DNA of 64,000 nt from Bifidobacterium sp. (GTDB taxonomy: Bacteria; Actinomycetota; Actinomycetes; Actinomycetales; Bifidobacteriaceae). The stretch is taken from contig JALCCT010000006.1 in NCBI GenBank assembly GCA_022640915.1, forward strand, positions 55,589 through 119,588, written 5' to 3'. Positions 23,403 through 52,971 of this stretch are shown one piece after another. Position 1 is the first letter of the stretch; each line of letters starts with the position of its first letter. The position numbers were made by a program, and so were the translations under genes. Under the pieces are notes generated by a model. It was not told where the DNA came from. It searched no databases and saw only the letters and a list, made by a program, of their open reading frames with translations.

Positions 23403-23551
23403 GATGGTCATCCTTTCATCGGCAGGTACGTGCCGAACGATCCGTTGTGAAGGGTTATGCATCCACTCATCGTAGCCAACTTCGGAAACGATAAACTTCT
23501 GCGTTAACTTTTCCGGCCATTGAAAGATTTCTCTTCGTTGAGCCAATGCCC

Positions 23552-41569: not shown

Positions 41570-41665
41570 GGCACTCTTTCTTGACTGGGCAGGGACGGTG
41601 GACTCAATTACGGATGAAACCGCAGTAGGTCAGTGCATTGATTATTCGATGCAGCAGCGGGTTGT

Positions 41666-42790: not shown

Positions 42791-43399
42791 GGTGTGTGTT
42801 CCTCGGTTCGTAAGTACAGGCTCATAACAGGTTCTGTGGTTATTCTAGCGGCTCTTATGCCACGGTGCGATGCTTAGCTGTGGTCGGACGTTATTGTTCT
42901 GATGATGAACGTAAGAGATATCAAGTAGTCGTCATAATAAGGCCTGTGGATAGTGTGGATAAGTGCGTTTAGCCCCACTGCGAGCTGGCGGGGAAGGTTT
43001 TGTCTTGTTGTGGATAACTTTTGGATTACCTGTGGATAACTTGCCGACTTATCCACAGCAGGGGCTTCGAATTTATGTTATCCACATTTTCGTTCAGGCT
43101 ATCCACGAGTTCTCCACCATGAAGAACCCCTCTATCCACGACTTAGTCGCAGGTTTTACGCACATTTGTGCATAACGATGTGGATAACTTTGTTTGTAGA
43201 AAATCGTAGAGCCGGTGTGTCGGGAAGTCGAATATTGGATTGCTGACAACGTGCTGTGGGTGCCGTTCTGCTGAATTTGGCACCTCAGGTAACTGGAAAA
43301 GCCGTAGAGAAACGGGTGCGGTACCGTGGTGTCGCAGATAACGCCAACCACAGCTGCAACAAGCATTAATAATCCGGAGAAGCTGCGCCTGAGTGCGTC
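42791..43399. other. oriC: dnaA-dnaN intergenic region, candidate oriC core
   Basis: 609 bases without a gene, rich in DnaA boxes. Exact TTATCCACA or its complement occurs at 42954-42962, 43009-43017, 43031-43039, 43049-43057, 43078-43086 and 43179-43187. Near matches are at 42945-42953, 43099-43107, 43132-43140 and 43167-43175. An AT-rich stretch just left of the first box (about 42885-42942) could be the unwinding element. The nearby switch in gene direction fits an origin here. Confidence 0.85.
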
Positions 43400-45001: not shown

Positions 45002-45376
45002 AGCCCCCCTCTTCCCTGTCGAACCTAGTAATTCCTACCATGCGTGTGGCGAACGCCATCTCATGCGTGGTCATGTACAAAGTCAATACAGACGACATGT
45101 TTACTCCAAATCGTGGAAGTTATCCACAGCCTTGCGTGTTGCAATCGCTCAATTGTGAATAACATCGCTGTTATTTGTGGATAAGTCTCATATATTATGC
45201 ACCGCGTATTGGCCTGAATTTCAACGGTTTGCGACTTCCGGAGTGGCGACGTTCAGCATTCGCGATGTGAAAAAACCGCTGTGTTTTTTGACTCTAGGCT
45301 AGTGTGAGAGTACGTTAGTAGAGCTTGACTCATGAGGAGCCATACTTTTGCATGGCTGAAAACCGGGAGCTTACCT
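45002..45376. other. oriC: rpmH-dnaA intergenic region with second DnaA-box cluster
   Basis: 375 bases. Exact boxes at 45120-45128 and 45176-45184, near matches at 45154-45162 and 45196-45204, a 7-bp inverted repeat AATAACA/TGTTATT at 45158-45175, and an AT-rich patch near 45180-45205. A weak minus-strand promoter for dnaA (TTGACT at 45081-45086, TGAGAT at 45058-45063, 17-base spacer) lies left of the boxes. The rpmH promoter lies right of them. Confidence 0.75.
45288..45316 (+). promoter_or_regulatory. rpmH promoter
   Basis: TTGACT (45288-45293), 17-base spacer, TACGTT (45311-45316). It gives a leader of about 55 bases before rpmH. Confidence 0.65.
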
Positions 45377-48941: not shown

Positions 48942-49634
48942 ATGGTGGAGTACGTAGTTCATACAGATGTAGAAATAGAAGAATCGGGAGTCGCTGAGCA
49001 GATATTAGGCGATACCGCTTTTACTGTCTGCCAATTGTTTCACGTGAAACTTTCCAAGGAAGGAGTGTTACGCGGGATCATTGGGCCTCGTGATAGTGAG
49101 ATCCTTTGGGAACGGCATATCCTGAATTCTGCGGCTATTGTGCCGTTCATTCGGCAGGCTGCTGCTGGTCGAAAGCGGAAGACTGTGGCCGATGTAGGAA
49201 GCGGTGGTGGGTTCCCAGGGCTTGTCGCAGCGGCTTGTCTTCCCGATTATGAATTCACGCTTATTGAGCCTATGGAGAGACGGTGTTCATGGTTGCAAGA
49301 GTGTATTGGTCTCATGCAGCTACACAATGTTCGGATACTGCGTAATCGTGCTGAAGAAGCTATTGCCCGTATGCACACCGACCATTCATTTCATTCGTTT
49401 ACCGTTGTTACATGCCGAGCGGTTGCACCTATGAAAAGACTCAGCGCATGGACGCTGCCACTTGTCGCTTCCCAAGGGCAACTAATTGCGTTAAAAGGAC
49501 GGTCGGCCCAGGCAGAGATCGAGAAAAGCTCTGCAGCAATAGCGAAGTCAGGCGGATTCAGGCCTCGGGTCGTAGAGGCGACAGTCGGACCTGATATGGA
49601 CCCTACTCACGTAGTGATCATCGATAAACACTAG
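48942..49634 (+). CDS. rsmG: 16S rRNA (guanine-527-N7)-methyltransferase
   Basis: 230 aa. The SAM-binding motif is [20 protein letters not shown], followed by [16 protein letters not shown] and [25 protein letters not shown] lies before the ATG. Modifies the 530 loop of 16S rRNA. A parS-like site lies inside the coding sequence (CQLFHVKL region). Confidence 0.95.
49036..49051. promoter_or_regulatory. parS: parS site (one mismatch) inside rsmG
   Basis: TGTTTCACGTGAAACT matches consensus at 15 of 16 bases and codes for the LFHVKL part of RsmG. Confidence 0.85.
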
Positions 49635-50151: not shown

Positions 50152-50201
50152 GAATTTCGCATGGGAGATGTTTCACGTGAAACATCTCCCATGCGAAATT
50201 C
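50152..50201. repeat. parS: Perfect 50-bp palindrome centred on a consensus parS
   Basis: GAATTTCGCATGGGAGATGT and onward to position 50176 is exactly complementary to 50177-50201. The central 16 bases (50169-50184) are the perfect parS TGTTTCACGTGAAACA. The flanks add 17 perfectly paired bases on each side. It can form a cruciform or, if transcribed, a long hairpin. Confidence 0.97.
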
Positions 50202-50212
50202 TAATTACCAAG

Positions 50213-50361
50213 TTATCCACAGCATTTTGCTGCACTCAGACTTATACACAGAAAATGTGCATAAGTCTGAGTGCAGCAAAACCATTCTCGTATTTATGCT
50301 TGTGGTAATCGAAAGAGAAGTTATCCACATAGTTGTTCATAGTTATCCACACTTATACACA
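50213..50361. other. Third DnaA-box cluster, upstream of parA
   Basis: TTATCCACA at 50213-50221, 50321-50329 and 50343-50351; TTATACACA at 50242-50250 and 50353-50361; TGTGCATAA at 50256-50264. Six boxes lie in 150 bases, between the parS palindrome and parA, 5 kb from dnaA. Confidence 0.8.
50225..50281. repeat. Hairpin with 26-bp arms carrying paired DnaA boxes
   Basis: The arm at 50225-50250 (TTTTGCTGCACTCAGACTTA then TACACA) pairs with 50256-50281 at 25 of 26 positions, loop GAAAA. The inner ends of the arms are the DnaA-box-like 9-mers TTATACACA and TGTGCATAA. Confidence 0.95.
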
Positions 50362-50489
50362 GTATTGAACAAAATGCCGAAGATCTGATCTGTCCACCCG
50401 AGTGACGAAACTGGAACAACTGTCATTCGCGACTTGAAGCCGTCGACGGCTGCTACTCGTTAGGAAACAGAAGGGAAAGGGCATTCGTT

Positions 50490-51434
50490 ATGGAATCTGC
50501 TGCGGAAACCATTCAACGTATTTTTGGCGATGCCCAGAGTTCAGTTGGCGCCGAAATGGCAGAGACAACTACGCTGTATAAGCGTCTCCATGAGACCGTT
50601 TTTCCCAAGCCATCTTCGACGAGATATATAGCAGTCGCAAATCAAAAGGGCGGGGTTGGCAAAACATCGACGACGGTGAATATCGCTGCGGCACTTGCAC
50701 AGGCAGGTGCCCATGTCTTGCTGATTGATATGGATCCGCAGGGGAATGCTTCTACAGCACTTGGTGCACGGCATAATTCAGGCGATGCATCGGTGTACGA
50801 CGTTCTCGAAGAACGAATGGGAATAGAGAAGGTCAAGCAGCAATGCGCTGAGTTCCCTTCGCTTGACGTTGTCCCCTCCTCGATTGATCTCAGCGGCGCC
50901 GAACTCGAAGTAGCTAATTTAAATGGAAGAACGTATCTGCTCAAACAAGCTTTGGAGTCGTTCATAGCGCAATCTAGCGATCACTATGACTATATCTTCA
51001 TCGACTGTCCCCCAAGCCTCGGGTTGTTGGTCATCAACGCTATGTGCGCTGTTACTGAGATGCTTATTCCTATTCAGGCTGAGTATTATGCCCTCGAAGG
51101 TCTTGGTCAACTCATTCACACCATCGGACTTGTGCAAGAGCATTATAATTCTTCGTTGCTGGTTTCGACGATGCTGGTCACAATGTTTGATAAGCGTACA
51201 TTGCTTAGCCGAGAAGTATATGAGGAAGTGAAAAAGCATTATCCCAGTATTGTGCTGAATACGACTATTCCTAGGACTGTCAAGATTTCGGAAGCACCCA
51301 GCTTCGGACAAAGCGTGATCAGTTATGATCCCCGAGGAATGGGAGCGGTGGCATACGTGGAGGCTGCTTTAGAGATTGCACAACGGTCGCCTGTAGTCTT
51401 AGCCGCGATTGAATCAAAACAACGAGAGGACTGA
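50490..51434 (+). CDS. parA: Chromosome partitioning ATPase ParA (Soj)
   Basis: 314 aa Walker-type ATPase. Deviant Walker A NQKGGVGKTSTTVN, then DMDPQGNASTALG and DYIFIDCPPSLGLLVINAM. An N-terminal extension of about 45 residues precedes the ATPase. With ParB it moves the newly replicated origins apart. GAAGGGAAAGGG precedes the ATG. It is followed by parB with one base between the stop and the next ATG. Confidence 0.97.
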   Translation: MESAAETIQRIFGDAQSSVGAEMAETTTLYKRLHETVFPKPSSTRYIAVANQKGGVGKTSTTVNIAAALAQAGAHVLLIDMDPQGNASTALGARHNSGDASVYDVLEERMGIEKVKQQCAEFPSLDVVPSSIDLSGAELEVANLNGRTYLLKQALESFIAQSSDHYDYIFIDCPPSLGLLVINAMCAVTEMLIPIQAEYYALEGLGQLIHTIGLVQEHYNSSLLVSTMLVTMFDKRTLLSREVYEEVKKHYPSIVLNTTIPRTVKISEAPSFGQSVISYDPRGMGAVAYVEAALEIAQRSPVVLAAIESKQRED

Positions 51435-51435
51435 C

Positions 51436-52971
51436 ATGGCTACGAAATCACGGTTAGGCAAGGGCCTTGGAGCATTATTCCCAGACCTTCCCGGGGAGCC
51501 GTTGTCGCTGAGCGCGAATGAAGATGAACAGAGCGTTGCACAAGCCGTTGTTGATGACTCTGCTGCTGATCATGCAGTGGCGAATTCAAATTCGTATGAG
51601 AGTGCGGAGCAGCCTGAGGTCTCAACAGATCCTGCGGCGGCAGATCGAACGCATCAAGCAGATCCGAAGGGGAAATTATCCACCAGGCACAAGCACCCAG
51701 CAAAGCACGATGTTTCACGTGAAACATCCAAAAGCACGGGAAAGAAACGTGTGAGCGTTCCCACGCTGAGTGAAATAGTGCATCCAAGCGACGTGTTCTT
51801 CGGTGCGACAGGCGATATAACAACTGCTCGAAGGCGTAATGAAAGCGTTCAGGACGATGCTATGGACGCGAGACAGGTTTCTCCGAACAGCAGAGAGACC
51901 GCGAATGTCGGTGCAGAGTTCATCTCTCACGATGATGAAATTGCTTCGTCTGAAACTGAACTTGCTCCGGTGCAGGGTGGATACCTTGCTGAGATCAAAG
52001 TTTCTGATGTTGGCCCTAATCTTCATCAACCCCGAACTGTGTTTGATGAAGACGAATTAAAAGAACTCGCCGACTCGATACAAGAGGTTGGTGTACTGCA
52101 GCCAATTGTTGTGCGAAAACGTCCACAGAACCAGCAACCTGAAAACAACACAAAGAGTTCCGGCCCTGGGGCTTCGCTAGCGCGTACAAACAGAATCGAA
52201 CACGTAAAAGCAGGGATTGCAACTCATGATGAGACGCACAATGTACCGAGCTCGGCTTCTGACGTTTCGGCATCTCCGGCTATGGACAGCGTCTATGAGC
52301 TAATTATGGGGGAGCGTCGCTGGAGGGCTTCTCAGCTCGCCGGTCTTGAAACGATCCCGGCTATAGTCAAAACTACTGCTGATGACGATATGCTCCGGGA
52401 TGCCCTCTTGGAGAATCTTCATCGCGTGAATCTGAATCCCTTGGAAGAAGCCGCAGCATTTCAGCAAATGATCAAGGAATTCGGCTTGACTCAAGCTGAG
52501 CTGTCTCGTGCGATTTCAAAGTCCCGTCCACAGATCGCCAATACCTTACGGCTGTTGAATCTTCCTGGCTCAGTACAGAAGAAAGTCGCGGCCGGAGTAC
52601 TTTCCGCTGGTCACGCCCGTGCACTGCTGTCGCTTCCTACCCAGGCAGAAATGGACAAGCTTGCAACAAGGATCATAGCTGAAGGGCTTTCCGTCCGCAG
52701 TACCGAGGAAATCGTAGCGATATCGTCTGCGTCAGCTGATCAGCCAGCGAAGGCGAAGGCACCGAAGAAGAATCCGTGGCTGGATTCGCCGATTCAGCGT
52801 AATCTGGAGAATCATCTTGATACTAAAGTGTCTATCAAGGGAAACCACAAACACGGCAGAATTGAAATCGTTTTCTCATCCCCTGAGGACATGGATCGCA
52901 TCGTTGATCTACTGATGCCAAATACTGGTGCAGCAGCTAATTCCGTGACAGCACATACTGAGTGGGTCTAA
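51436..52971 (+). CDS. parB: Chromosome partitioning protein ParB with insertion
   Basis: 511 aa, long for chromosomal ParB. N-terminal ParA-contact motif KSRLGKGLGALFPDL; then about 160 variable residues; the N-terminal CTPase domain (EIKVSDVGPNLHQPRTVFDEDELKELADSIQEVGVLQPIVV); an insertion of about 50 residues (KRPQNQQPENNTKSSGPG through SPAMDSV) before GERRWRASQLAGLETIPAIV; box II ENLHRVNLNPLEEAAAFQ; helix-turn-helix TQAELSRAISKSRPQIANTLRLL; and a C-terminal dimer domain. The ATG at 51436, one base after the parA stop, is chosen over the ORF-track start. A consensus parS lies inside the variable linker. Confidence 0.95.
   Translation: MATKSRLGKGLGALFPDLPGEPLSLSANEDEQSVAQAVVDDSAADHAVANSNSYESAEQPEVSTDPAAADRTHQADPKGKLSTRHKHPAKHDVSRETSKSTGKKRVSVPTLSEIVHPSDVFFGATGDITTARRRNESVQDDAMDARQVSPNSRETANVGAEFISHDDEIASSETELAPVQGGYLAEIKVSDVGPNLHQPRTVFDEDELKELADSIQEVGVLQPIVVRKRPQNQQPENNTKSSGPGASLARTNRIEHVKAGIATHDETHNVPSSASDVSASPAMDSVYELIMGERRWRASQLAGLETIPAIVKTTADDDMLRDALLENLHRVNLNPLEEAAAFQQMIKEFGLTQAELSRAISKSRPQIANTLRLLNLPGSVQKKVAAGVLSAGHARALLSLPTQAEMDKLATRIIAEGLSVRSTEEIVAISSASADQPAKAKAPKKNPWLDSPIQRNLENHLDTKVSIKGNHKHGRIEIVFSSPEDMDRIVDLLMPNTGAAANSVTAHTEWV
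51711..51726. promoter_or_regulatory. parS: Consensus parS inside parB
   Basis: TGTTTCACGTGAAACA, a perfect match, coding for VSRET in the variable linker of ParB. Confidence 0.92.

Follow-up and report, generated by a model that had tools for sequence, protein, structure and literature searches.

The window, a 64-kb stretch of DNA, represents the origin region in a species of Bifidobacterium whose source genome comprises 1.76 Mb in 22 contigs and is 78% complete. The gene order is dnaA (minus strand), rnpA, yidC, jag, rsmG, parA, and parB (plus strand), and the identities of the DnaA, RsmG, ParA, and ParB proteins were established. The strict DnaA box TTATNCACA occurs 16 times in the window versus 0.74 times expected, and all 16 boxes are confined to three clusters, between dnaN and dnaA (7 boxes), dnaA and rpmH (3 boxes), and rsmG and parA (6 boxes). 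The last of these packs its six consensus boxes into 149 bp, a density beyond chance, within an 855-bp gap that also holds a long hairpin (Table 1). Three oriC clusters, with TTATCCACA and TTATGCACA among their box types, have been reported in the same genus for B. longum DJO10A and NCC2705 (PMC2430713). The passage of that paper on the clusters gives no positions for them and mentions no hairpin; they are presumably the three clusters of the window, the parA-proximal one included.

Table 1. Features of the Bifidobacterium origin region (window positions)
Feature	Position	Strand	Remarks
dnaN-dnaA DnaA-box cluster	42925..43187	.	7 strict boxes; GC-skew turn nearby
dnaA-rpmH DnaA-box cluster	45120..45184	.	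3 boxes
rsmG (gidB)	48942..49634	+	upstream neighbor of the array
parS (TGTTTCACGTGAAACA, 50169-50184) in a 50-bp perfect palindrome	50152..50201	.	
DnaA box 1 (TTATCCACA)	50213..50221	+	about -277 from the parA start; position kept across the genus
57-bp inverted repeat (hairpin)	50225..50281	.	arms 50225-50250 and 50256-50281; convergent DnaA boxes at inner ends
DnaA box 2 (TTATACACA)	50242..50250	+	spacing from box 1 of 29 bp, conserved
Convergent partner of box 2 (TTATGCACA)	50256..50264	-	5-nt gap; convergent pair kept in a four-species subclade
DnaA box (TTATCCACA)	50321..50329	+	
Tandem DnaA boxes (TTATCCACA c TTATACACA, 1-nt gap)	50343..50361	+	genus-conserved; box starts 50343 and 50353
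parA	50490..51434	+	
parB	51409..52971	+	second perfect parS inside, at 51711

The hairpin has arms of 26 nt, of which 25 are paired, around a 5-nt loop (GAAAA), with one DnaA box in each arm. This structure agrees in every coordinate with the description in an earlier note on this DNA, and the further boxes that it listed at 50213, 50321, 50343, and 50353 are all strict matches to TTATNCACA. The sole mismatch of the stem, an A opposite a C, falls at position 5 of the DnaA box, which is the degenerate position. The placement of the hairpin beside parS was also borne out, as a perfect parS at 50169 lies 40 bp to its left, with the parS core ending 29 bp before box 1. No other inverted repeat in the window is as long as the parS palindrome or the hairpin, and these two are direct neighbors. 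The parS palindrome extends 18 bp beyond the 14-bp core, the longest extension among the 81 parS sites examined.

Folded as DNA, the hairpin has an energy of -26.6 kcal/mol (z = -10). A hairpin this long is expected by chance about 7e-9 times per 64 kb, and inverted repeats in Markov resamples never reached 13 paired bases; a chance origin is excluded. Long stems per se are not exceptional in this genome, since 400 kb elsewhere in it contain three hairpins with at least 25 paired bases and 17 with at least 15. Near-perfect examples with 26- to 35-nt arms, which have no T run immediately after the stem, lie at L204:9127, L204:621, and L194:5903. A repeated element or MITE was considered and rejected, as the only other match of the arm in the genome is a chance one with 3 mismatches. 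An assembly artifact was also considered. Judged from the assembly without reads, the locus is sound, because both of its flanks align with those of relatives, which also have the convergent boxes.

A cluster of six strict boxes, near the number found between dnaN and dnaA, might mark another functional origin of replication, or the part of a split oriC at which unwinding takes place, and the cluster would be one of three published oriC clusters if these match the three that the text of PMC2430713 reports for B. longum. However, the cumulative GC skew reaches its minimum at 41,580, near dnaN-dnaA, and is already rising at 50 kb, so that no turning point falls at the rsmG-parA cluster. No run of two or more DnaA trios stands beside any box of that cluster, which thus lacks the succession of DnaA box, short spacer, and repeated trios of a basal unwinding system, whereas at the dnaN-dnaA cluster tandem boxes are accompanied by a GC spacer and by a run of two trios, with imperfect trios after it. 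The oriC published for B. dentium is likewise dnaA proximal (PMC2788695). Because the skew turn and the trios are found only at dnaN-dnaA, we regard that gap as the likely oriC and the rsmG-parA cluster as an accessory one 7 kb away; a second or split origin at the latter is improbable. At the dnaN end of the dnaN-dnaA gap (window 42925-42965), tandem boxes are followed by a GGCC spacer and the trio-like series AAG TAG TCG TCA TAA TAA. Tandem boxes, a GC spacer, and trio repeats are the layout of the basal unwinding system (PMC8287927), which makes this segment a candidate basal unwinding element for Bifidobacterium.

The parA-upstream regions were taken from 80 genomes of the family, of which 78 regions, including that of the window, were full length. 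Two or more strict boxes were found in 67 of these 78 regions, and 47 contained two plus-strand boxes 27 to 33 bp apart. In none of the 78 genomes did a control interval located farther upstream (-1200 to -780) contain a box, nor did the parA-upstream kilobase of the Actinobacteria outside the Bifidobacteriaceae that were examined. In a consensus of 66 aligned regions, box 1 is separated by 29 bp from box 2, which is followed after about 100 bp by box 3, 1 nt, and box 4, and often by 4 nt and an inverted box 5. This convergent fifth box, present downstream of the tandem pair in many species, is degenerate in the window. Among convergent boxes, spacings of 4 nt (28 cases) and 5 nt (7 cases) stand out as a sharp peak, while spacings between divergent boxes show no peak. 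Both the position and the layout of the array are thus conserved among relatives. The array is dispensable in some lineages, because about a tenth of the sampled genomes (9) have no strict box upstream of parA. Its immediate proximity to parS is not genus-wide either, since a parS core lies within 100 bp before the first box in 16 of the 78 regions. A search of viral contigs with ParA returned remote ParA homologues only.

Two further observations concern the same region. Between the array and parA, a block of the form TGTCCAy.CGAATGA.GAAACTGGA (window 50390-50440) is conserved across the genus and is perhaps the parA promoter. In several species (L154, L172, L170, L148, and L135), palindromes of 19 to 23 bp occur at the tandem-box end of the array; in each, a tandem pair of DnaA boxes faces an inverted pair, giving four boxes with dyad symmetry.

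The earlier note had proposed covariation in the arms as a test of the hairpin, with conservation beyond strain level as one of the two points, next to DnaA binding, on which its idea depended. We compared the hairpin with the corresponding DNA of the closest three species with data (G092, G115, and G111; ParA 89%, 81%, and 81% identical). The convergent pair at box 2 is present with an identical 5-nt gap in all three, and in G115 both boxes are changed (TTGTCCACA/TGTGGACAA), that is, on both sides of the dyad. Beyond the boxes the picture is different. In the 17 bp beyond each box, all 17 positions pair in the window, versus 4, 5, and 4 of 17 in the three relatives, which is the background level. 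The hairpin sequence has no DNA match in 119 relatives, and the extended parS palindrome of the window is shared with none of the three species. A count of compensated pairs on the four sequences looked positive, but the signal came from the boxes and from the window. A hairpin conserved by covariation was accordingly rejected, as the window supplies the structure while the other three species pair at background outside the boxes; pairing is not kept through compensatory changes in the arms. A genus-wide hairpin was rejected as well, as the box palindromes of other species lie at different positions. When the flanks of 38 other convergent pairs were permuted across genomes, the flanks of one genome paired better with each other than with those of other genomes at essentially no position but the first base past the box. 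It follows that the conserved element is the pair of inverted binding sites and not the long stem. Apart from their boxes, the long arms are confined to this species, and the long hairpin is not conserved beyond it, which is one half of what the earlier note had set as a refutation.

Template switching is a known route from short dyads to perfect hairpins (PMC8794818), and the long hairpin is probably a species-specific extension of a palindrome made in this way. A short dyad of two inverted DnaA boxes would have been converted into a near-perfect palindrome by a template switch during replication. The right flank matches relatives at 18 of 51 positions and the left flank at 9 of 51. This slightly greater closeness of the right flank fits, weakly, a left arm overwritten by template switching, although the polarity is statistically weak.

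The same comparison bears on the structural switch that the earlier note had proposed, in which a supercoil-driven cruciform, or a fold of the single strand, would alter the access of DnaA to its boxes and thereby couple DnaA to segregation at parS. The great stability of the hairpin (z = -10), the second, equally stable palindrome at parS 19 bp away, and the long box-containing palindromes in the same region of other species (e.g., G048, G089, and G055) are all in keeping with it. On the other hand, the extended arms are absent from the closest relatives, and the palindromes of other species are located at different boxes and mostly reflect the fact that the boxes are themselves inverted tandem repeats. 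Nor does the supposed competition between extrusion and DnaA binding follow, because each arm of the extruded cruciform is a hairpin that keeps one duplex DnaA box, mismatched at the degenerate position only; binding and extrusion need not exclude each other. We therefore consider a switch quite unlikely. The other half of the proposal, a link between DnaA and segregation, is plausible, because it is the cluster of DnaA sites, and not the hairpin, that is conserved across the genus beside parS and parAB.

A DnaA box held within a hairpin stem is also what defines the A-site of the ABC primosome, where DnaA binds the box inside the stem (PMC6127211, in its account of Masai 1990). By analogy, an exposed single strand at rsmG-parA would fold to form a duplex DnaA box, here mismatched at the degenerate position only, from which DnaA would load the helicase near the origin. 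The precedent described in that account acts on single-stranded templates, whereas the Bifidobacterium hairpin lies within a double-stranded box array, four other boxes of which are outside hairpins, is not conserved in sister species, and has no phage or plasmid context; such a priming site is very unlikely. Equally hard to credit is the view that the rsmG-parA gap carries a transcription terminator or an RNA structure and that its DnaA boxes are a coincidence: the stem is long and intergenic, long stems occur elsewhere in the genome, and the neighboring parS palindrome scores as terminator-like, but on both strands the hairpin has a T run before the stem and an A run after it (AAAA at the stem end), the reverse of an intrinsic terminator, it was not called by terminator prediction, it has no match in Rfam, and its boxes are part of a conserved array.

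We consider it probable that the locus is a third, parA-proximal accessory DnaA-binding array linking DnaA to parAB and parS, in which the hairpin is a species-specific by-product. The sites themselves are observed, and DnaA binding and function are predicted from them. In the mechanism that we propose, DnaA would bind the conserved boxes, in double-stranded form, that lie between parS and parAB some 7 kb away from the likely oriC. In this way DnaA may influence segregation through control of parAB expression, through its own loading on the side of parS, or through both, and the array may also take up DnaA near the origin. The convergent pair at box 2, kept within the four-species subclade, would represent a DnaA-binding geometry, and extrusion of the hairpin would not be needed for function.

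Two known systems resemble this arrangement. A DnaA-centromere link is not without precedent: DnaA binds at parS in Caulobacter crescentus, according to the statement in PMC6399470 that cites Mera et al. 2014. As described there, DnaA boxes are located some 8 kb from the origin, at parS or close to it, and a coupling of initiator level to segregation has been suggested; DnaA boxes are likewise adjacent to parS in the window. The lineages are unrelated, the Bifidobacterium boxes stand directly upstream of parAB, and binding and phenotype were demonstrated in Caulobacter, where here there are sites alone. On chromosome II of Vibrio cholerae, RctB and ParB2 act at rctA, upstream of parAB2, and both control parAB transcription (PMC3141006). 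The rctA/parS2 locus thus also combines initiator sites with parS immediately upstream of parAB; it differs in that the initiator is RctB, not DnaA, and in being a negative control element of a secondary chromosome.

A bolder proposal, which we put forward tentatively and think may well not hold, is that Bifidobacterium DnaA directly couples initiation to origin segregation through the genus-conserved array of tandem and convergent, 4-nt-spaced boxes between rsmG and parAB, which is next to parS in some lineages. The array would then be an actinobacterial counterpart of DnaA-parS in Caulobacter and of rctA in Vibrio, and the paired DnaA and ParB sites would in some species have been shaped into long palindromes, perhaps affecting local DNA structure. 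How bacteria tie the start of replication to origin segregation is largely open, and few cases of initiator sites at a centromere are known. In a genus that is both culturable and medically relevant, a genus-wide, position-conserved DnaA array directly upstream of parAB would permit a direct test of such coupling in the Actinobacteria. It is the array that is worth following; the hairpin itself matters little, and it serves mainly as a warning that mutation at the species level can produce a striking palindrome around binding sites that are conserved.

Against the by-product reading, the extension of two neighboring sites, parS and the box pair, in one species could also mean selection for extrudable DNA. 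Extended parS palindromes with unrelated sequences recur in other species (e.g., G027, G099, G102, and G025), some of them with T-rich tails, and because of these tails some may double as transcription terminators. The sole Rfam match in the window lies away from the hairpin and is an msiK RNA motif (RF01747) on the minus strand at 23404-23462.
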